DNA of 64,000 nucleotides, taken from positions 62,001-126,000 of the forward strand of contig JAHIRF010000002.1 of the NCBI GenBank assembly GCA_018818785.1, in the 5' to 3' direction. Below, piece after piece: positions 3,188 to 17,455 of the stretch. This DNA comes from Thermoplasmatota archaeon (GTDB lineage Archaea; Thermoplasmatota; Thermoplasmata; UBA10834). The translations under genes and the position numbers were made by a program. Below the pieces are notes generated by a model. The model saw only the letters and a program-made list of their open reading frames with translations, was not told where the DNA came from and did not search any database. How positions within the stretch are numbered: the stretch's first letter is position 1; the number at the start of each line of letters is the position of its first letter.

Positions 3188-3360
3188 TGATTCGAGTAGT
3201 CTTGAATATGTGATAAATATTGTGGCCCTCGCTGCCCTCATGCAGATAGATAGTCTGCACGAGGAGATGCCATACTCATTGCTATGGGATTACTCATATT
3301 GCATTCTCAAGAAGAAGGCTAGGAAGAGAGATTGTGTTATATATTCTCTTAATAGGTTTA

Positions 3361-3422
3361 AGTGCCAGGTGAAGGATATAAGCCCCTTGGAACCTCGCAT
3401 ATCTGAGCGTGATTCATGCGCC
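3361..3422 (-). repeat. Displaced copy of the rnpB 3' end plus flank (copy A)
   Basis: Positions 3361-3388 match 7061-7088, the last bases of rnpB, at 27 of 28 positions in the same orientation. The identity stops two bases past the end of rnpB helix P1. The following part, 3389-3422, is repeated imperfectly at about 3545-3578. This arrangement is what site-specific integration at the 3' end of an RNA gene leaves behind. Confidence 0.6.
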
Positions 3423-3518
3423 ATCCGGGCAGAGTATGAATGAGCTTGCGCCTATTCGTCCGTTCTCGTCAATCTGCCTATGGAGGCGGTATTTCCTCCC
3501 TTATGGGCTTTTGCGCAC

Positions 3519-3578
3519 GGCGAAGTGAAGAACCTGAACCGCCTTGAAACCTCCATTTCTGAGCGCGATTCATGCTAG
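3519..3578 (-). repeat. Diverged second copy of the rnpB-3'-like repeat (copy B)
   Basis: On the minus strand copies A and B share GCATGAATC, CGCTCAGA, GAGGTT and CTTCAC in the same order and spacing. Copy B also keeps the AAGG...CTTCAC skeleton of the rnpB 3' end, with more substitutions. It lies about 155 nt from copy A. Confidence 0.5.
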
Positions 3579-3763
3579 AATCGCGCAAACTCCATCGTCT
3601 TTCGCTCACCACTTTGGGGTCCAAGGCGTTGTTTCGGATAAAGCCGGATCAGACCTTACAGGTAAGCCGAAAAGGGTATATGCCGCCTTTCAGATTGCCA
3701 GTCTCGTGGGAACGTCGGAGGCGATGTAGACTGCCAGTAACCGTACAATGGTCTCATATTGGG

Positions 3764-3874
3764 GTGGGTTCAATAATCGCATTTTTGGTAGGCTGGTGGA
3801 TATTTGGCTTTCTTGGTGCGATACTATTGGCAATCATCGTCTTGGTCCTAATGGGAGTCATAAGGATTAGGTAG
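3764..3874 (+). CDS. Very small single-span hydrophobic protein (tentative)
   Basis: The frame beginning at GTG 3764 encodes 36 residues that are almost entirely one or two hydrophobic helices (FLVGWWIFGFLGAILLA, then VLVLMGVIRIR). It ends 29 nt before a gene with a strong ribosome-binding site. The frame is open further upstream, so a longer form from an ATG at 3680 is possible. No family was recognised. It is listed because of its strong membrane character and its place beside other small membrane genes. Confidence 0.3.
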   Translation: MGSIIAFLVGWWIFGFLGAILLAIIVLVLMGVIRIR

Positions 3875-3903
3875 AATCGCTGAGAAATCGGAGGTGGCAG
3901 GAA

Positions 3904-4029
3904 ATGGCAGAGAAGAACGGTGGCGGGATAATAGCAGCAGCAAAGAGTCGCGCGGCGAAATCCGCCGGTGGACGTGGCCCTGCAACGGGACGCAAGACCG
4001 GCAAGAGAATCACGGGACCTGAGAGGTGA
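3904..4029 (+). CDS. Small basic Ala/Gly/Lys/Arg-rich protein
   Basis: The 41-residue frame starts with ATG at 3904 and has a near-perfect Shine-Dalgarno, GGAGGTG, 7-8 nt upstream, which is the main reason for calling it. The product starts MAEKNGGGIIAAAKSR and continues with Gly-, Lys- and Arg-rich sequence, so it is predicted basic and unstructured. It could bind nucleic acid or a membrane surface, but no family was recognised. The stop codon is inside the ribosome-binding region of the next gene (4037), so the two are probably translated from one message. Confidence 0.55.
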   Translation: MAEKNGGGIIAAAKSRAAKSAGGRGPATGRKTGKRITGPER

Positions 4030-4036
4030 TGGAGAC

Positions 4037-4372
4037 ATGGACGAGATTCTTGTGGAGACTTTGATCTTCTTACTCGTCGGGCTGATTGTCTCGACCATCA
4101 TCATCTATGTGATCACGAAGTTGTCTAGAGAGGAAGAAGGGCTAGGAACGGCCATATTGGCCGCCTTGGTCGGGGCCGTCATTTACGCCCTAGCGTACTA
4201 CTTCCTGGGCGAAGGACTCCTAGCTGCTTTGGCGGCCGGGTTCGTTTGGTGGCTGGCCCTTGGAACCCTCTACAGCATGGGCTGGTGGAAGGCACTCGGA
4301 GTGGCAATCGTCGTGTGGATTGTCGCCTTCCTTGTGGGCTTCATATTGCCTACTGTCGTAGGTCCTCTGTGA
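4037..4372 (+). CDS. Small integral membrane protein, about 3-4 spans
   Basis: The 111-residue protein is mostly hydrophobic: an N-terminal helix (FLLVGLIVSTIIIYVI), a short charged loop (TKLSREEEG), then three hydrophobic stretches rich in Ala, Gly and Trp ending FLVGFILPTVVGPL. The start is ATG 4037, preceded by GAGGTGATGGAGAC overlapping the end of the previous gene. No family was recognised. It lies in the gene-poor segment next to rnpB and is the best-supported of the small membrane genes there. Confidence 0.6.
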   Translation: MDEILVETLIFLLVGLIVSTIIIYVITKLSREEEGLGTAILAALVGAVIYALAYYFLGEGLLAALAAGFVWWLALGTLYSMGWWKALGVAIVVWIVAFLVGFILPTVVGPL

Positions 4373-4474
4373 GGATGTATTGAACTTCGACGAAAACCTT
4401 CTCCTATTACTGCCCCCTATGACCTTTTTTCTGGGAGAAGCTAAGAACCTGGACCCATCTGTAGAATCTGTCGG

Positions 4475-4690
4475 ATGGTTTGGTCTTTGAATTCAGGGGA
4501 AGTCTGCGGAATTGCCCTTGTCATAGGAATTGCAGCGCTTTTGATACTTCTCATATTGCTGATCAAACCCCGTCGCAAGATTCGCAATGAAGAGAAGTTG
4601 ATGAGAGTCTCTGAATGGGTTTACTACGCGATTGCGTTGACCATTTTCTTAGTAATCATATTGGCCTGGGTGTTGACTTGGCTGCAATGA
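4475..4690 (+). CDS. Two-span small membrane protein
   Basis: The 71-residue frame from ATG 4475 has a first hydrophobic helix (GIALVIGIAALLILLILLI), a basic cytoplasmic-type loop (KPRRKIRNEEKL) and a second helix (YYAIALTIFLVIILAWVL). The positive loop between two helices predicts both termini outside. No strong ribosome-binding site was seen. No family was recognised. Support comes from the coherent membrane topology and from the neighbouring small membrane genes. Confidence 0.45.
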   Translation: MVWSLNSGEVCGIALVIGIAALLILLILLIKPRRKIRNEEKLMRVSEWVYYAIALTIFLVIILAWVLTWLQ

Positions 4691-4725
4691 TTCGTCGTGA
4701 GGCATGCCGCCCCTGTGGCCTTTTC

Positions 4726-5133
4726 TCAAAGCTTCTTCCCATACAAAGCGGCAATAATCACAATGACACCAAGGAATCCAGGCCCGAGTGCAATCAGGAA
4801 GGATTCTTCTTCGCTCGTGGCAACATAGATCGCCAATGCGACGCTGATGATTACCAGGATAGCTCCAACTCCGATGATCATGGTCTTGAGCCGACGCTTT
4901 GGTCTTCCCCGGAGCTCTGGAGTTGGCACAGTAGACACTCTCTCACGGTCAACGACTTCTTCCTCAGTCACATCCTTCCCCGCCTGCACCTGAATCACCT
5001 TTCTCGGTTTAAGGGCTTCCTCCGCCCCTATGGATGTTATGATGAAATCGTCCCTTAGCATTCGCAGGATACGAATAGTCGAAAGACCATATGATACTCC
5101 GGTCACGGATCCAACCCCGGGAAAAGAGTGCAC
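4726..5133 (-). CDS. Hypothetical protein with soluble N-terminal part and two C-terminal membrane spans
   Basis: The 135-residue frame begins at GTG 5133. An internal ATG (5061) is an alternative start. The first about 85 residues are polar and end in a basic patch (GRPKRRLKT). Then come two hydrophobic helices (MIIGVGAILVIISVALAIYV and IALGPGFLGVIVIIAALYG) and the short tail KKL. The layout suggests an anchored cytoplasmic domain. No family was recognised. It is convergent with the two-span gene at 4475-4690. Confidence 0.5.
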   Translation of the reverse strand: MHSFPGVGSVTGVSYGLSTIRILRMLRDDFIITSIGAEEALKPRKVIQVQAGKDVTEEEVVDRERVSTVPTPELRGRPKRRLKTMIIGVGAILVIISVALAIYVATSEEESFLIALGPGFLGVIVIIAALYGKKL

Positions 5134-5516
5134 TTCGAGTGCGACCTATGGATTGGGGCATGTCCCTGACAAAGGGACGAATTGACCATAGTGCGGGAAA
5201 ACCGCGAATAGAGGCGTGTCCGACAGTCCCCACGGGTCCGCGACGATCAAGGGATTTGGGAAGAAGATAGTCGATAACGAACAGGGATTGCGGGACATTT
5301 CAACATAGAGGCCTTTTCTAGTCCAGTCCCTATGAAACCCTGCGATTCCGAACCTTCTGAAACTTATCTGTGCAGACGACTCCATCCTATATTCATTAGT
5401 GCTATTCGGTGTGTTTCGCAGTGATAGAATGTCATGCGCCCGATGCTACGCTACTCAACTAACCAAGAGATAAATAGAACTGACAAGGGGTTTGAGTTCT
5501 GAAGCGCGGATCCCCG
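5134..5516. other. 383-nt intergenic stretch with no recognised gene
   Basis: Only a 79-codon minus-strand frame without a family, a membrane span or a ribosome-binding site is present, and I do not call it. A small perfect hairpin lies at 5162-5178 (GTCCCT, 5-nt loop, AGGGAC). No RNA gene was recognised. Confidence 0.5.
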
Positions 5517-6569
5517 TCATAAGTGTGGGTTGTCCCCGCAATGGCCTTGACCTTCACCGCCGCTGTCGCCGCCGTTGCCTCCGCCTGGACCTGTATCCAT
5601 CAACTGGCCAAGCAAAACCCATGCGTTGTTCACACCGGCGACCACAGAGACCCCGCCGAGGCCAATGCCGAGGTCGGCATACAATGCCACATCCACCTCC
5701 TCACCGGTCTCGTCCTTTATGGTTATATTCCAATCTCCACCGGGGTTCGTCTCACTTGCCCACTCTTCGTTTGACACCAGGCTGACATAAGGATGTACGT
5801 CGTCGAACAGGACGCCATCACCTATGTACAGGTGACCGACAGCGAAGTCAACCGTGTACCAAGGATTATTGCCGCCAATCTCTCCGACATACTTCCCTTC
5901 CTCATTAGGGTCCTGTACAACTTTTCCGAGTTGCACGTCAACACGGTAATTGCCTTCCGGTGCTCCCTCCGTGTTCCACAGCATTCCGTATATCAGATTC
6001 CCGTGCTTGTTCACTTCGCGGCCCAGTTCGCTGAAAATGACTCTATCGTATGTTTCGTTCCAGCCTGCTTCGAAACTTCGGCTGTATGGCTCATCTCTGG
6101 AAGGTGTCTCTGGCGACAATACCTCGGTGATGGTTACACGTATGTACGACACCGACACCATCCTCGTATCATTTAATCCAGCGGAGTCATTCAAGAGGAA
6201 GCTCTGCTGGCTCCAATACCCCTCCTCCCAGTACTCAGGGTATGTTTCTGGAGAGTACAAATGTTCGTACTCATCCGTCAGGTTTATCTGCCCTTCATCA
6301 ATGAGCCTTGGGTCACCTCCGAAACCGGTCATGTTTATGATCATCATCTCGATCCTGACCAGACCGCCGGTTCTCCATTGCGGCGCGAACACCATATTGT
6401 CCGCGAAGTACACTGCGCACGATATCGATCCACTACCTGGTGGTGGCATCGTGATTATCATGGGATCCCCTTCTTCATGACCAGAGCTTTTCGCACCGAC
6501 CATGAATGCCGAAGGCAGGACCAACATGAAAGCCGCAATTGCCACAGCCGTAGCTCTCGTGTATCTCAT
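5517..6569 (-). CDS. Secreted protein of unknown function
   Basis: The protein has about 350 residues. From ATG 6569 it has a typical Sec signal peptide: MRYTRATAVAIAAFMLVLPS followed by AFMVGAKSS, with cleavage likely near Ala-Lys. An earlier in-frame start at 6602 would only add 11 residues before the signal. The mature part is acidic, rich in Asn, Gly, Asp and Tyr, with several N-glycosylation-type sequons (NMT, NLT, NDS, NDT, NET, NIT). It has a Gly-rich C-terminus (GPGGGNGGDSGGEGQG). No catalytic motif or anchor was recognised. It is probably an extracellular or envelope protein. It lies in the segment bounded by the rnpB 3'-end repeats and is preceded by two inverted repeats (6601-6616, 6642-6661). 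Confidence 0.7.
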   Translation of the reverse strand: MRYTRATAVAIAAFMLVLPSAFMVGAKSSGHEEGDPMIITMPPPGSGSISCAVYFADNMVFAPQWRTGGLVRIEMMIINMTGFGGDPRLIDEGQINLTDEYEHLYSPETYPEYWEEGYWSQQSFLLNDSAGLNDTRMVSVSYIRVTITEVLSPETPSRDEPYSRSFEAGWNETYDRVIFSELGREVNKHGNLIYGMLWNTEGAPEGNYRVDVQLGKVVQDPNEEGKYVGEIGGNNPWYTVDFAVGHLYIGDGVLFDDVHPYVSLVSNEEWASETNPGGDWNITIKDETGEEVDVALYADLGIGLGGVSVVAGVNNAWVLLGQLMDTGPGGGNGGDSGGEGQGHCGDNPHL

Positions 6570-6600
6570 TTCCTTACCACTCCCCCATTTCCTCTCGGGC

Positions 6601-6661
6601 ACCAGAGCGTTCTGGTACCCAAATCTTATTACGCCGCTATAGTACTAAATACCTCTAGTAC
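6601..6661 (-). promoter_or_regulatory. Promoter region with two perfect 6-bp inverted repeats
   Basis: ACCAGA/TCTGGT (6601-6606 and 6611-6616, 4-nt spacer) and GTACTA/TAGTAC (6642-6647 and 6656-6661, 8-nt spacer). The second repeat flanks a TATA-like AGGTATTTAG on the minus strand, about 25 nt before a plausible transcription start for the secreted-protein gene. An operator for a dimeric regulator is possible. This is inferred from symmetry and position only. Confidence 0.35.
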
Positions 6662-7062
6662 AATCCTCGAAATATCACCGCAGTCAGTACATTCGGAAAA
6701 GTGCACACGCGTTGAAGGTCGGATGACACGACGGAGGCGCGAGATTTCCTCCGGACCTGCACCCTCCCGACAGGTCGTACTGTCGGCGCACAGGCTGATA
6801 GGGGGTGGCCTTTGCGACTCGCTCTTTTGTTCATCGGTAGTACCTCATGAGTCATAATTGTCGTAATAGATAGTCAACGCTGCCATACTGCAGGGGTTCT
6901 AGAAACGCACAGAGATGCGGCAGCTCAGAGGAGCTAGAACAGACTGTCCGTGTTATCTCGCGCCTACGGCCCTCTAATCGCGCCGTCGAGGGACTTGGTA
7001 AGAAAAGAATGCGAACATAAGGTTTTGGACGGAGGGAAAACCTTACGTTCTGTACCTCATAG
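6662..7062. other. 400-nt stretch downstream of rnpB, no gene recognised
   Basis: Open frames here are short or overlap the rnpB gene. I see no family match, membrane span or RNA structure. Confidence 0.4.
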
Positions 7063-7386
7063 TGCCAGGTGAAGGACATAAGCCCCTTTCTGTTCACCTC
7101 TTTCGAGGCTGATGGCATTCGACTAATGCACTCTACCCGCCGACGATGAGAATCGTTTCGGCCGTTTGAGCTTGCTCCGGTGGGGTGTCGCCGTTTCAAC
7201 AAATCCTCGGGAGACTTCATCCTCAATGGAATCATCACATTATCCCGAGGCTGTGCCGTTTCTGTGCCCTTGCCAGGACTCTCGCCCTGCTGCTCTGGCA
7301 GCCCACCTTCTCTTGGAGAGGGGACTTTCCTCAGCCGACTCGTTCTGAGAACGAGTCTACCGTCAGCCATCCGCCTTCTCCTGGCA
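7063..7386 (-). ncRNA. rnpB: RNase P RNA
   Basis: The minus strand carries the hallmark RNase P sequences in the right order. Near the 5' end is GAGGAAAGTCC (7322-7332); next ACAGAAACGG (7256-7265); then an ACCGGAGCAAGCTCAAACGG block; and near the 3' end ACAGAAAGGGGCTTATGTCC (7074-7093). The ends are set by helix P1: TGCCAGGAGAAGG at the 5' end pairs with CCTTCACCTGGCA at the 3' end with one A-A mismatch. A perfect stem at 7337-7357 fits helix P3. A TATA-like box (7406-7416) lies 25 nt before the predicted 5' end. The RNA cleaves 5' leaders from tRNA precursors together with archaeal RNase P proteins. Length about 324 nt, normal for archaea. The 3' end is duplicated at 3361-3388. Confidence 0.93.
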
Positions 7387-7443: not shown

Positions 7444-7920
7444 TCAGATGCTCCTGGCATCTGTAAAAGCTGTTTTGATGGTGACCTGTCCATCGACTAG
7501 ATCGAAAGTCGCAGACCGGCCCCTATTGCCGTGGAGATCCTCTGCGATAATCTTGATTCCGAGTTCCTTGAGGCCCTTCTTGACCTCACGGCAGTTATCT
7601 CCTCCGATATCGCTGATATGAACGTTAAGATTGGGAAACATCTGAGCGCCGCCGACAAGCTTGGCCCTTATTCGTTCCTTCCGCGCGCCCTTTGCGATCA
7701 TGTCTCTGAAAAGCTTCTTGACGCCCGTATCAGCATACTTGCCCTCGTTCTCAACCTTCAAAGGCGCTCGGGGAAGTAGGATGTGTACGACTCCGCCGAG
7801 TCTCATCTGATGATCATACAAGAACACGGCGACGCAGGATCCGAGTCCCATGCAGCATATCTGCTCCGGTGCCCTCGCAACGGCAATTTGCGATATGCCC
7901 ACGAGGATCGGCTCTTTCAT
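7444..7920 (-). CDS. cheD: CheD, chemoreceptor glutamine deamidase
   Basis: The 158-residue protein deamidates specific glutamines of methyl-accepting chemotaxis proteins and works with CheC. Family hallmarks are visible: the catalytic Cys in GLGSCVAVFL, the His in GGVVHILLP, and the conserved AKLVGGAQMFP and IGGDN stretches. Length is normal. It is the last gene of the minus-strand chemotaxis operon and its start overlaps the end of cheC by 4 nt, which fits translational coupling and the known CheC-CheD partnership. rnpB follows 57 nt downstream under its own promoter. Confidence 0.93.
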   Translation of the reverse strand: MKEPILVGISQIAVARAPEQICCMGLGSCVAVFLYDHQMRLGGVVHILLPRAPLKVENEGKYADTGVKKLFRDMIAKGARKERIRAKLVGGAQMFPNLNVHISDIGGDNCREVKKGLKELGIKIIAEDLHGNRGRSATFDLVDGQVTIKTAFTDARSI

Positions 7921-8528
7921 CTCATCGTGTCTCCCATCTTTTCTAGTATGGTGTCTAGCATCTGCTGCTCTGGAAGGAGCAGGAAATACCCGTCGAACTC
8001 CTTCTCGAAGCTCTTGAATACCGTGTGTACTGCAATGACCGAGTCCACCTCGATCTCAAGATTTGCTAGCGGAAGGTCGATGATGGCGCCGAGCATATCT
8101 ATGGACACATCTGGTGGTGCTGGTATAAGGTCAGTATCTATCATTTTCGAGACAGCGACAAGGTACCAGCAGAGGCATATGTTGCCTATCTCCCTGAGGG
8201 CGGATGCATGTATCTGCGATAGATTGGATAGGTTGATTTCCTCGTTGGTCAGATGCTTCATGAGGATTGCTGCGGAATTGTCTGATAGAACCACGAGGAC
8301 TCCGCCTCGAAGATCACCGCATAGCTGCGTATAAACGCCGACCACGATCTTGTCCGAACCACCGAGCCATTCACCGACCTCTGAGAACTTCAGGAAGTTG
8401 CACGAGGTCACTTCGTTCACGATTTCGATATCCAGGAGAGATGCGAGTGCAGTGGCCGCGTTTCCTGCGCCAACGTTGGCAAACTCCTTCACGATCCCCA
8501 ATACCTTGCTCTCGTCTATCTCCTTCAT
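7917..8528 (-). CDS. cheC: CheC, CheY-P phosphatase
   Basis: The 203-residue protein dephosphorylates CheY-P and binds CheD in known systems. Two phosphatase-type helices are visible: KEFANVGAGNAATALASLL near the N-terminus and SALREIGNICLCWYLVAVS in the middle, each with the Glu and Asn pattern, so both sites may be active. It sits between cheA and cheD and overlaps cheD by 4 nt. The length fits the CheC class rather than the shorter CheX. Confidence 0.92.
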   Translation of the reverse strand: MKEIDESKVLGIVKEFANVGAGNAATALASLLDIEIVNEVTSCNFLKFSEVGEWLGGSDKIVVGVYTQLCGDLRGGVLVVLSDNSAAILMKHLTNEEINLSNLSQIHASALREIGNICLCWYLVAVSKMIDTDLIPAPPDVSIDMLGAIIDLPLANLEIEVDSVIAVHTVFKSFEKEFDGYFLLLPEQQMLDTILEKMGDTMR

Positions 8529-8533
8529 CTCAA

Positions 8534-10462
8534 TCAGTCTCCGAGGATTGAATCCATGTCCAGTATGAGCGCGATCTTTCCGCTGCCCAATATCGTTCCG
8601 CCGGATATGCCTCTGGTATTCCTCAAGTGCTTATCCAAGGATTTAACGACTATCTGTTGATGCCCAATGAGTTCATCGACCCTGATTGCTGCGCGTCTTT
8701 CACGGCTCTGGACTATCAGAGTGTTGATGCTGTCCTTCTTGGGCGCAAGTTCCAATGCAAAGAAATCGTACATGTCGATGAGAGGCAGCACCTCTCCTCT
8801 CAGTTGCACGACCTCTCTGTTGCGTATGAGCCTTACCTCTGGTCCTTGGAAGCAATGGGATTCGACTACGGAACTCATAGGCGCTGCGTAGATCTGCCCT
8901 CTGATCGAGATCATCATCGCTTCTATGATTGCAAGGGTGAATGGCAGCCATAGCGAGATGGTCGTACCCGCCCCTTTCGAAGTGGACATCATCACAGAGC
9001 CTCCAAGGTTCTCGACACCCTTCTTGACGACATCGAGACCCACCCCTCTGCCGGATGTCTCCGATACTTCAGTCTTGGTGGTGAATCCTGGCAGGAACAT
9101 TAGCTCGATCAGTTCTCGTCCGAGGGCGGCATCTGCCCTATCCTTGGTCATAAATCCCTTGGATACTGCACTCTGTCGTAGCCGGTCGAAATCCAATCCT
9201 TGCCCGTCATCCGTTATCTCTATCAGTACATGGTCTTGTTGCTTGGATGCGACCACTCTGATCAGCCCTTTCGGATTCTTGCCTGCCTTCACCCTCTCAT
9301 CGGGCATCTCGATCCCATGATCGACTGCATTTCGGATTATGTGGATTATGGGTTCGGATATCCTGTCTACGACTGTTCTGTCGAGCTCAATATTCCCCCC
9401 TTCGACTACGAGCTCGGCCTCCTTGGTTTGGTTTTTTGCCAAGTCTCGGACCATCCTTGGGAAGCGACTCATAACATAATCGAGCGGTATCATCCGAATG
9501 CCCAGAACTTTCGCCTGGATACCCGAAGTAAGAGAATCGATCAATGACGATATGTCCTGGAGTTCATAATCGTCGCTCGATGAGGCCATCTCGACTAGTC
9601 TGCTTCGGCCTATGACAAGCTCGCCGACATCATCCAGGAGCTCGTCCAGCTTATCCATCCCTACCTTCACGGTCTGTACAAGGGATGCATCATGGCCGTC
9701 CTTGGTCTTTTTCTCTTGCTTGGGCACTCTCTTCAACTGGTTCTTCTGAGTGCCAGTCTCCCCTTCGAGGAGTTGCTCGACATCAATCATGTTCGCTATT
9801 CTTGACAGGACTTCTCGGTAGTTATCTGCAGGGTCAACTTCTATGACCAATTCGTCGAATGGTCGCTCGTTCTCGATGTCGTTCTCAGATGGTGTCATGC
9901 TGAGGATCGATGCACCCTTCTCTAGCTCCTTCATTATCACTATTGCTCTGGCGGAGGGCAGGGCGCATCTGCGTGCAAGTCTTATCCTGATCACATTTCC
10001 TTTCGGAGCCGCCTTCTCTTCGACTGCGGGGCCCTTCTTCTTCGAGGTCTTCTTCATCTCCTGGGGTTGATTGGTCAGCGATCTCAGATTAATGAGAAGA
10101 TCGGGATTATCACCAACCTCAAGGGTACGTTCGACCTCCGAGACCATGGCTTCTAGCCCATCGATACCCTTGAATATGCCCTCGACCACCGCCTCATTTA
10201 CTGGCAAATCCCCATCTCTGATCGCTGCGAGGATGTCCTCCATCGCATGCGCTGTCTCAGAAATCGCAGTGAGATTCATCATGCTCGCCATGCCTTTGAG
10301 CGTATGGCAAGCCCTGAACATCTGATCTATGAGTTCTTTGTCTTCGCCGCTCGATTCGAGCGCGATGACCGCCTCATTGAGTGAGCGTAGGTACTCCCTA
10401 GACTCGCTCACGAAGAGTTTCGAGTACTTGTTGAGATCGAACTCCTTTGTCAGTTGTATCAC
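8534..10462 (-). CDS. cheA: CheA, chemotaxis histidine kinase
   Basis: The 642-residue kinase phosphorylates CheY and CheB in response to receptors. Domains in order: Hpt (1-110) with the phospho-accepting His53 in CHTLKGMASM; a linker and P2-like region (about 150-265); dimerisation helices (LDELLDDVGELVIGRSRL); the HATPase domain with HIIRNAVDHGIE (N box), DDGQGLD (G1) and TSGRGVGLDVV (G2); and a C-terminal CheW-like domain. Translation probably starts at GTG overlapping the cheB stop (GTGA). It is downstream of cheB and upstream of cheC in the operon. Confidence 0.95.
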   Translation of the reverse strand: MIQLTKEFDLNKYSKLFVSESREYLRSLNEAVIALESSGEDKELIDQMFRACHTLKGMASMMNLTAISETAHAMEDILAAIRDGDLPVNEAVVEGIFKGIDGLEAMVSEVERTLEVGDNPDLLINLRSLTNQPQEMKKTSKKKGPAVEEKAAPKGNVIRIRLARRCALPSARAIVIMKELEKGASILSMTPSENDIENERPFDELVIEVDPADNYREVLSRIANMIDVEQLLEGETGTQKNQLKRVPKQEKKTKDGHDASLVQTVKVGMDKLDELLDDVGELVIGRSRLVEMASSSDDYELQDISSLIDSLTSGIQAKVLGIRMIPLDYVMSRFPRMVRDLAKNQTKEAELVVEGGNIELDRTVVDRISEPIIHIIRNAVDHGIEMPDERVKAGKNPKGLIRVVASKQQDHVLIEITDDGQGLDFDRLRQSAVSKGFMTKDRADAALGRELIELMFLPGFTTKTEVSETSGRGVGLDVVKKGVENLGGSVMMSTSKGAGTTISLWLPFTLAIIEAMMISIRGQIYAAPMSSVVESHCFQGPEVRLIRNREVVQLRGEVLPLIDMYDFFALELAPKKDSINTLIVQSRERRAAIRVDELIGHQQIVVKSLDKHLRNTRGISGGTILGSGKIALILDMDSILGD

Positions 10463-11517
10463 TCCTCTATGAAATCTATCATTCTTCTGGGAATGTCATC
10501 CAGTGGCAGCACTTCGTCCGCTGCGCCTGCACGTATTACCGCGTTGGCCATTCCGAATATCACCGACGATTCCTCGTTCTGAACGATGACCCTGCCGCCA
10601 TATCTCTTGATGACCTCTGCACCTTTTGCACTATCTGACCCCATGCCGGTCAGAACGATGCCCAAAAGCTTCTGTCCATAGCATCGTGCCGCAGTCTCGA
10701 ATAGGATATTCGCAGAAGGCCTGACAAACTGTACCGGCGGACCATCGTCCAGCTTCATCATGATTCCCTTGCGCTCCTTCGGTTCAAGTATAAGATGTGT
10801 GCCGCCAGGTGCCAGATATGTTGTATCGTTCTCGACAAAGACCCCATCCACTGCGAGTCTCACCGATGGACCCTGCACTGAATCCAGTCTTTTCGCGAAA
10901 AGGGTCGAGAATTCTATGGGCAGGTGTTGAACGATGAACATCGATGCTGGGAGGTTCTTAGGCAGTATGGAGAAGACTGTCTCGAGAGCTCGCGGACCTC
11001 CTGTGGATGCGGCCAATACGATGGCCTTAGTCTTAGCACGAACATCCGGCGTCTTCTCAGGTCCAGTTGTGAGCAGACGGGTGGTGATGCTCTCCATCTT
11101 GAGCGCATCCAGCTTCGCCCTCGCTATGGTCCTCAGATGGTTTGCGATTCTAGCCTTGTAGTTGATTATGTCTATGGATATGGTTCCGCTCGGTTTGGGT
11201 ATGAAATCGACTGCTCCCTGGGACAATGCTCTCAGTGGCAGCTGGCCATCCAACTTGTCCATTGCGCTGAGCATGACGACCCTTGTGGGTCTGTTTTTCA
11301 TTATCATCTGGAGGGTCGTGAGCCCATCCATACGAGGCATCTGTATGTCAAGGAGTACGATATCTGGCCTGAGGCGCTCGACCTTCTCGAGCGCTTCGAC
11401 GCCATCCTTTGCTGTATCTACGACGGTCAGTCCTTCCTCTGACTCCAACATGTCGCGTAGAACTACTCGCATATACGCGCTATCGTCGACGACGAGGATC
11501 TTGACCGAGTCAGGCAT
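10459..11517 (-). CDS. cheB: CheB, receptor methylesterase with receiver domain
   Basis: The 352-residue protein removes methyl groups from receptors. The N-terminal receiver domain (1-120) has the DD pair, the phospho-acceptor Asp in IVLLDIQMP and the conserved Lys in FIPKPS. The C-terminal esterase domain (about 165-350) has the nucleophile Ser in AASTGGPRA, the His in FIVQHLP and the Asp in TGMGSDSAKGA. This is the full-length, phosphorylation-controlled form, unlike the receiver-less CheB part of the fusion at 1-2010. It overlaps cheA by 4 nt. Confidence 0.95.
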   Translation of the reverse strand: MPDSVKILVVDDSAYMRVVLRDMLESEEGLTVVDTAKDGVEALEKVERLRPDIVLLDIQMPRMDGLTTLQMIMKNRPTRVVMLSAMDKLDGQLPLRALSQGAVDFIPKPSGTISIDIINYKARIANHLRTIARAKLDALKMESITTRLLTTGPEKTPDVRAKTKAIVLAASTGGPRALETVFSILPKNLPASMFIVQHLPIEFSTLFAKRLDSVQGPSVRLAVDGVFVENDTTYLAPGGTHLILEPKERKGIMMKLDDGPPVQFVRPSANILFETAARCYGQKLLGIVLTGMGSDSAKGAEVIKRYGGRVIVQNEESSVIFGMANAVIRAGAADEVLPLDDIPRRMIDFIEE

Positions 11518-11527
11518 CAGACACCTC

Positions 11528-11893
11528 TCACATGCCCATCTGCAGGACCGCGTTCACGGATTCGAGAACATCATCGGCTGTGAATGGTTTCATTATGAAG
11601 TCTAGAGCGCCGGCTTCCAGCGCTCTCATGACGGTCTTCTGGTGGCCTAGCGCGGAGACCATGATGATCTTGACCTTGTCATCGGCCTCCTTGAGTCTCT
11701 TGACGGTTTCGATGCCATCAGTCTCCGGCATCACGATATCCATCGTGATGACATCTGCCCCGAACTTCTTGAAGAGCTCAAGCGCTTCATCTGCATTCTT
11801 TGCTTCCATGACCTTGTGTCCGCCGTTCTCAAGGATGTTCTTGATCACTCTACGCATGAATTCGGAATCGTCTACCACGAGAACCGTTGCCAT
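11528..11893 (-). CDS. cheY: CheY, chemotaxis response regulator
   Basis: The single receiver domain of 121 residues contains the acidic pair VDDSEF, phospho-acceptor Asp52 in ITMDIVMP, Ser/Thr in MVSALG and Lys in FIMKPF. I chose ATG 11893 over an upstream in-frame start because GGAGGACGATAAG lies directly before it and because the protein then begins MATVLVVDD like its family. It lies between cheW and cheB, with 1 nt separating it from the cheW stop. In archaea CheY-P acts on the archaellum through CheF, neither of which is in this window. Confidence 0.95.
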   Translation of the reverse strand: MATVLVVDDSEFMRRVIKNILENGGHKVMEAKNADEALELFKKFGADVITMDIVMPETDGIETVKRLKEADDKVKIIMVSALGHQKTVMRALEAGALDFIMKPFTADDVLESVNAVLQMGM

Positions 11894-11894
11894 C

Positions 11895-12362
11895 TTATCG
11901 TCCTCCTTCAGGGGTTTCATTCGGTGATAATTCCAATATCTTGACCGGATCGATAATGGTTATCAGTCGATCGCCCAACTTGGCGATGCCGCGGACATAT
12001 TCGGACTCAAGCGAATCGGCAACGTATGATGGGGGTGCCTCCACATCCGATGCGGACAGCCTCAAGACCTCGGATACTTCATCGACGAGGAACCCCACAG
12101 GGGCGTCAGGTGCCTCGACCACCACAATCTTTGTCGCCTCGCCAGGAGATTTCGTTTCTAACCCTAACCTCTTCCTGAGATCTATTATCGTCACCAGCTT
12201 CCCTCTAAGGTTCATGACTCCCTCTATGTATGATTGGGTTCGGTGCACCTTAGCGATCTCATCCAGGTCCTTTATCTCTTTGACACTGACGATATCGAAT
12301 GCGTACTCTTCCTTTCCAAGTCTGAAGACTATGTATTGCTGGGTCGGAGTCGGTTGGTCCAT
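11895..12362 (-). CDS. cheW: CheW, receptor-kinase coupling protein
   Basis: The 155-residue CheW domain protein couples receptors to CheA. Conserved stretches include YIVFRLGKEEYAFDI, VEGV-like IEGVMNLRGKLVTIIDLRKR and IGFL-like VGFLVDEVSEVL. Its ATG overlaps the stop of the receptor gene (TGATG), showing tight coupling. Its own last codons, rich in GGA, provide the ribosome-binding site for cheY. Confidence 0.94.
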   Translation of the reverse strand: MDQPTPTQQYIVFRLGKEEYAFDIVSVKEIKDLDEIAKVHRTQSYIEGVMNLRGKLVTIIDLRKRLGLETKSPGEATKIVVVEAPDAPVGFLVDEVSEVLRLSASDVEAPPSYVADSLESEYVRGIAKLGDRLITIIDPVKILELSPNETPEGGR

Positions 12363-16663: not shown

Positions 16664-17455
16664 CTAACTGACTACCCTGTTCTTCAAGCATCCGATACCT
16701 TCAAGATCGACCTCGACCAGGTCTCCGGGTCTCATGGCGGCGATTCCAGATGGTGTTCCCGTTGCAATGACATCTCCTGGCTCAAGTGTCATTACATTTG
16801 ATATGTATTCGACCAAAGCCGCGTCATCGAACACCCTGTCGGATAATGGTGCATCCTGTACGATGTTCCCGTTCAACCTGGTCAATATGCGTGTCGGGGC
16901 CTGGCCTGAGACGAACGGGCCCATCGGGGCAAATGTGTCGAAGCCTTTCGCCCTTGTCCAATCAGGGTCGATCTTCTGGAGGTCGCGGGCGGTGACATCG
17001 TTCATGCATGTGAAGCCGAAAATATGGGATCCGCCGTCATCGGTGTGCCTGGCCCTCTTGCCGATTATTATAGCGGATTCGCCCTCGTAATCTACTCTCG
17101 AAGACATCTGCGGTATGCGTATATCGTCTCCTGGACCGATTATTGCAGAGGACGGTTTTGTGAAGATTATTGGCACCTTCGGTACCTCCCAGTTCATCTC
17201 CTCTATATGACTTCGATAGTTGAGTCCGATGCAGATGATTTTGGACGGTCTCGGAAATGGTGCGAGCACGGTGACTCGCAAGGATGGGTGACGGATCGCC
17301 TTCTCGGCGAATCCATGGCTGAGAACGTCCTCCATGGAGGTCTGGTCCGTCTCTATGACTTCGTCTCCATCGACGATTCCGACGAACATTCGGTCCTCAA
17401 TCCTGAATCGGCCCAGCCGGATTCCGTTTGGTATCGAGGGTTCCAACTTATCCAC
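16664..17455 (-). CDS. Fumarylacetoacetate hydrolase (FAH) family protein
   Basis: The 263-residue protein has the FAH C-terminal domain: KIICIGLNYRSHIEEM, the metal-binding Glu-x-Glu type region VDYEGESAIIIGKRAR, DVTARDLQ, KGFDTFAPMGP and ATGTPSGIAAMRPGD. Members hydrolyse acylpyruvates, decarboxylate oxaloacetate or act in aromatic meta-cleavage. The exact substrate cannot be told from sequence. It sits between ilvC and ilvE in the branched-chain gene row, so a housekeeping role on a 2-keto acid is possible. The start is GTG 17455. Confidence 0.85.
   Translation of the reverse strand: MDKLEPSIPNGIRLGRFRIEDRMFVGIVDGDEVIETDQTSMEDVLSHGFAEKAIRHPSLRVTVLAPFPRPSKIICIGLNYRSHIEEMNWEVPKVPIIFTKPSSAIIGPGDDIRIPQMSSRVDYEGESAIIIGKRARHTDDGGSHIFGFTCMNDVTARDLQKIDPDWTRAKGFDTFAPMGPFVSGQAPTRILTRLNGNIVQDAPLSDRVFDDAALVEYISNVMTLEPGDVIATGTPSGIAAMRPGDLVEVDLEGIGCLKNRVVS

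Follow-up and report, generated by a model that had tools for sequence, protein, structure and literature searches.

Why is the 3′ end of the RNase P RNA gene, rnpB, present a second time 3.7 kb away from the gene in a Thermoplasmatota archaeon? The locus lies in a 64,000-nucleotide (nt) stretch of contig JAHIRF010000002.1, here called the window, and a first-pass annotation made from the sequence alone had read the DNA between the two copies as the remnant of an element that used rnpB as its attachment site. From comparison with related genomes we consider it probable that the rnpB 3′ end is an integration site and that the DNA behind it belongs to a class of gene cassette arrays, bounded by a 22-nt site termed M, that stand behind RNA genes. 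The relatives, referred to by G numbers, are Thermoplasmata metagenome-assembled genomes (named matches include UBA9653, RBG_13_57_23 and CP070732 bin41).

The repeat is as first described: positions 3361-3388 and 7061-7088 agree at 27 of 28 nt in direct orientation. Within three mismatches it occurs in the whole genome (1.97 Mb) at these two places only, not at many unrelated sites, and dinucleotide shuffles of the window gave no match to it. At rnpB it takes in the last 22 nt of the gene and 6 nt past the Rfam end; the claim that it covers the gene's 3′ end stands, with the "two further bases" of the first-pass annotation corrected to six. No integrase gene lies within 3389-7060, also as noted before, and other tyrosine integrases are present elsewhere in the genome. 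The displaced piece is itself repeated: a weaker version of 3364-3419 (56 nt, 71% identity) stands at 3520-3575 and is perhaps an older displaced tail. The end of rnpB also holds an imperfect 8+6+8 palindrome (window 7067-7095, GAACAGAA-AGGGGC-TTATGTCC), which may be the core site of a recombinase or a terminator; in several relatives a similar palindrome lies about 56 nt downstream (L047:4663 and 4719; L050:4516 and 4571).

Because the GNAT protein of the outer genes had no relative near rnpB in the fetched loci, the test for an insertion rests on flank sequence and not on synteny. In several relatives of the same family, CACTTAAACCTATTTAAAG or a close variant directly follows rnpB. In the window, the sequence that follows rnpB in relatives stands behind the far copy (CACTTAAACCTATTAAGAG, reading down from 3364 on the minus strand) instead of behind rnpB. 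When this far flank was aligned to the relatives' rnpB flanks, with 500 shuffles for each, its score was reached by no shuffle for G009, G010 and G001 and by one for G008. No relative's rnpB flank resembles that of the rnpB in the window. The flank is not conserved everywhere, being unrelated in G004, G006, G007, G014 and G020. Since the native flank lies beyond the far copy and not at rnpB, the far copy is the original gene end, and the present rnpB tail came with the insert. The reading of 3389-7060 as DNA that arrived later than the original rnpB locus holds on this comparison.

Displaced rnpB tails are also found in relatives. Searching all 21 genomes of the order with a 23-nt piece of the rnpB end (AGGGGCTTATGTCCTTCACCTGG) revealed displaced copies in eight relatives (two each in G004 and G006, and one in G005, G007, G008, G010, G015 and G018), several of them adjoining arrays, and the reversed query matched nowhere in the 21 genomes. 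In G008, rnpB (L045, G008:C127:5104-5421) carries an aberrant tail, TTACGAACCTTGACC, with one P1 pair lost. The consensus tail is found 0.86 kb downstream, which is the arrangement that replacement of the native tail by an incoming one would produce. In G001, of the same genus as the window's genome, the interval is 0.88 kb as against 3.7 kb, the contig breaks inside the second tail, and the end of the interval has 125 nt in common with the window at 82% identity. The first-pass annotation had proposed a search of the clade for integrases next to rnpB, and one was found: a gene for a tyrosine integrase (415 aa, PF00589) starts 72 nt behind the rnpB of G004. The other genomes of the order lack a homologue of this integrase, which was therefore rejected as a common enzyme. 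The displaced flank, the relatives' displaced tails, the G004 integrase and the G008 tail swap together give good support to an insertion at rnpB that duplicated the gene's 3′ end. The 36-kb interval from rnpB to the far tail in G005 was rejected as a single insert, since much of it looks like ordinary genes. In G007 a tyrosine integrase gene stands beside one for a serine resolvase (PF00239; L085:6017-7976), about 5 kb from the displaced rnpB tail at 1172108.

Comparing the DNA behind rnpB between relatives brought out a repeated motif, M, with the 22-nt consensus GAGAAAAGGCCATAGGGGCGGA; in 101 copies, conservation is limited to positions -2 to +22. Allowing three mismatches, M occurs 60 times in G007, 56 in G010, 42 in G016, 36 in G009, 27 in G005, 24 in G014 and 13 in the window's genome. 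Among 400 genomes sampled from the class, M is no commoner than chance outside the family, and thus appears to be confined to this family of Thermoplasmata. The copies sit in one-direction arrays, and at times overlap a TGA stop codon. In G007, 17 copies on the rnpB strand extend over 12 kb, the first of them 1.5 kb behind rnpB.

The 116 intervals between neighbouring M sites have a median length of 660 nt and usually hold one open reading frame (ORF) spanning about three quarters of the interval; the longest ORF runs with M in 72 of 110 cases and against it in 38. Most products belong to no recurrent family, and those that recur are zinc ribbons, clostripain-like peptidases, acyltransferases and winged-helix regulators. 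When arrays from different genomes are compared, blocks of homology run from one M to the next. Five whole cassettes occur in two places, four of them involving the G007 rnpB array, and in all five both neighbours differ.

The arrays are also tied to RNA genes. In the two single-contig genomes used for the platform count (32 arrays or single sites, with one further weak G007 copy included for 61 in all in that genome), seven of the 32 start within 500 nt behind a tRNA or rnpB gene on the same strand, where 0.18 were expected, and none starts within 500 nt of an RNA gene on the opposite strand. The platforms include tRNA-Ala (L171, M 6 nt behind) and tRNA-Val (L130, L170), and in other genomes tRNA-Arg (L169) and tRNA-Leu (L165). 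M follows the tRNA end by 6-15 nt, and in several joints a tRNA 3′ tail stands just before M. Integrase genes or their remnants lie between the RNA gene and the first M at G000:C8 (G000 being the window's genome), G009:C11 and in G016, and are absent at other arrays. The neatest order of platform, integrase and array in the window's genome is that at G000:C8:69728-78161 (L165:1729-10161), where a gene for a XerA-like tyrosine recombinase (325 aa) comes after tRNA-Leu(CAA), with M sites behind it. At G000:C9:162557-168628 (L166:4557-10630), a 434-aa integrase gene stops immediately ahead of an M that has a tRNA 3′ tail before it, and four more M follow.

How does the segment in the window relate to these arrays? 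A weight matrix built from 151 sites, with a maximum of 6.1 bits in five shuffled windows, finds three M sites in the segment, one strong and two weak (Table 1), all on the rnpB strand. The strong site bounds a gene for a membrane protein with a related frame in an array of G005; that frame lies near the far rnpB tail of G005, and the DNA match stops at M in both genomes. With a strong M and a cassette in common with G005, the segment can be read as a small, decayed array between rnpB and the displaced tail. It is the strong site and the shared cassette that carry this reading, for which the weak sites alone would be insufficient. The earlier view of a remnant is well supported as to insertion, and probably too simple in supposing a single element, as the segment shares its 22-nt site with the family's large cassette arrays.

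Under the model we favor, the 3′ end of rnpB would be the integration site, and incoming DNA with its own rnpB tail would have been joined to it through site-specific recombination, with a tyrosine recombinase as the most likely enzyme. In G005 and G010 the tail adjoins TGCAGGGTTTCAAAGGGGC, and TGCAGGGTTTCAAAGGGGC also occurs inside arrays without a tail; this suggests that the crossover lies around AAAGGGGC, in the conserved 3′ part of the gene. The product would be a working rnpB with the incoming tail at 7061-7088, and the original tail and flank would have been pushed to 3335-3388. The DNA between them would be a small, partly decayed array of family-specific gene cassettes with M at each joint. 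A putative recombinase acting in trans may add cassettes to arrays at M, remove them and transfer them from one array to another, the arrays growing behind non-coding RNA genes (rnpB and several tRNAs) as fixed platforms. The arrays, their orientation, the sharing of cassettes with changed neighbors, the RNA anchors and the displacement of tail and flank are brought out by comparison of genomes, and from these sequences we infer recombination at M, the place of the crossover and the type of recombinase.

Several observations weigh against this model. The window holds a single strong M, and a copy scoring as low as the better weak one (13.8 bits) also lies outside the segment, at 17345. A synteny search of the fetched loci found no empty site with the same outer genes, the arrangement by which the first-pass annotation had hoped to see the insertion confirmed. 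Partial homology blocks (17) outnumber whole cassettes (5), and for 25 of the 32 arrays the 500 nt upstream are free of RNA genes. The arrays do not all share any one recombinase; no circles were found, nor, by exact match, viral contigs with M or a displaced tail. Finally, all the data are metagenome-assembled genomes.

The same locus could instead have been built by one or a few ordinary integrative elements, whose tyrosine integrase acted at rnpB and was later lost, with tandem accretion repeating the tails and M merely carried at the element ends. A displaced tail with a regenerated gene is the classic signature of such elements, an integrase gene does lie right behind rnpB in G004, with others behind tRNA genes in G000, G009 and G016, and the repeated tails in the segment, like the tRNA tails before M, fit serial integration. 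However, the same cassettes occur in rnpB arrays and elsewhere with other neighbors, which crossover at RNA tails alone does not yield, and arrays that reach 17 units, without an integrase for each, differ greatly from the tandems on record, of which those of three or more are rare (4 among 3919 islands; PMC4383910). We regard this explanation as a serious one that is nevertheless unlikely.

It is improbable that M is a transcriptional or regulatory signal, a promoter or terminator of small genes, with its clusters arising from duplication and gene turnover at tRNA-linked hotspots. Such a role would suit the occasional overlap with a TGA stop and the majority of longest ORFs that run with M, but not the 38 that run against it, nor homology that starts and stops at M while both neighbors differ, nor the close trailing of tRNA ends by M. 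Least probable of all is that no insertion took place and the repeat, which at 28 nt is short, reflects chance or a local duplication of the rnpB end. The genome-wide count and the shuffles exclude chance; a local duplication would have kept the native flank at rnpB, whereas it is behind the far copy, and relatives have displaced tails of their own, independently.

Insertion at an RNA gene with a displaced tail is the hallmark of tRNA and tmRNA islands (PMC4383910). As in Islander-type islands and archaeal integrative elements (PMC4383910, PMC8371274), the insert at rnpB enters an RNA-gene 3′ end and appears to regenerate the gene: the target is intact, a displaced 3′ fragment follows in the same orientation, the original flank lies beyond it, and tyrosine integrases are nearby in relatives. 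Unlike such islands, 3389-7060 and most array units have no integrase, the target is rnpB and not a tRNA or tmRNA gene although the same type of array also stands behind tRNA genes, and up to 17 units per array have a common 22-nt joint and appear to move between arrays at different RNA genes. Our literature searches on rnpB or RNase P RNA as an integration site, with most subscription papers outside their scope, returned nothing relevant and thus no described site of this kind, in keeping with the first-pass annotation; a review of the tyrosine recombinases of archaea is silent on RNase P (PMC8371274).

Integrons have been described in archaea (PMC9668308), and like them the arrays consist of small, mostly unnamed cassettes in one direction; the joint site is specific to the lineage, one end is a fixed platform, and order and neighbors change between genomes. 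Unlike integrons, M lacks the GTTRRRY core, having no GTT, and the fold-back partner of attC. An attC-like fold-back or a second motif at fixed distance around M was looked for and rejected, as neither was found; in a coarse structure test the mean folding energy before M hardly differed. An RNA gene serves as platform, roughly one in three of the longest ORFs opposes the array, and no IntI-type integrase was found among the 10 array-neighbor integrases scored, which are ordinary archaeal tyrosine recombinases (best TIGR02249 score 53.9 versus a cut-off of 265). The pdif modules of Acinetobacter plasmids are small, have short Xer/dif sites at their ends and are moved in trans by the chromosomal Xer recombinase. 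The cassettes are likewise small and bounded by a short site, and one high-scoring XerA-like match stands out in most of the genomes, so that XerA might hypothetically act on M; unlike dif, however, M does not have two inverted arms around a spacer, and all sites point one way.

The 3′ end of the essential RNase P RNA contributes to helix P1 and to the conserved core, and every insertion there therefore has to restore a functional tail. What the family carries behind tRNA genes and rnpB looks like integron-type rows of small cassettes without known integron parts. We consider it about as likely as not that this one uncultured Thermoplasmata family has a cassette-capture system unrelated to integrons, in which M-bounded cassettes are captured, stored and shuffled behind RNA genes, including rnpB, by a recombinase in trans. 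If so, the arrays would be a second, independent way to store and trade cassettes, in which RNA genes take the place of the integron platform. M would provide a 22-nt tag by which the mobile genes of these archaea could easily be searched for.

Table 1. Features of the rnpB locus in the window.
Feature	Position	Strand	Evidence or remark
rnpB, archaeal RNase P RNA gene; probable integration target and array platform	7067..7382	-	RF00373, 205.7 bits, full model
rnpB-proximal repeat copy; tail brought by the insert	7061..7088	-	27/28 to far copy; flank beyond unlike any relative
Far copy, the displaced original rnpB tail	3361..3388	-	27/28 match to 7061-7088
Original rnpB flank, now behind far copy	3335..3364	-	Aligns with rnpB flanks of G009, G010, G001, G008
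Array terminal 125 nt beside displaced tail	3388..3512	-	82% to sequence before second tail in G001; 71% over 100 nt to G004
Weaker copy of tail and terminal sequence	3520..3575	-	56 nt, 71% to 3364-3419
Site M, strong copy	4705..4727	-	33.1 bits
Site M, weak copy	3493..3515	-	13.8 bits
Site M, weak copy	4409..4431	-	11.0 bits
Possible further joint (tentative): array-end-like sequence, then half M	5310..5344	-	TGCAGGGTTTCAAAGGGGC match, ≤4 mismatches
Putative cassette gene, 135-aa membrane protein	4726..5133	-	64% over 101 aa to frame in an array of G005
Putative cassette gene, secreted protein without Pfam family	5517..6602	-	No relative in fetched loci
Small membrane or basic ORFs of the putative array	3572..4690	+	ORF content

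An Rfam search of the array loci returned tRNAs, rnpB and one unrelated match only. A match to PYLIS_3, the pyrrolysine insertion element, lies near a cassette array in G016 (L131:1514-1624) and, at 40.5 bits, is just over the cut-off. Directly upstream of rnpB in the window (7444-12362) are chemotaxis genes, assigned by similarity and order to CheD, CheC, CheA, CheB, CheY and CheW; CheD and CheC adjoin rnpB in several relatives, though not in all of genus g3.

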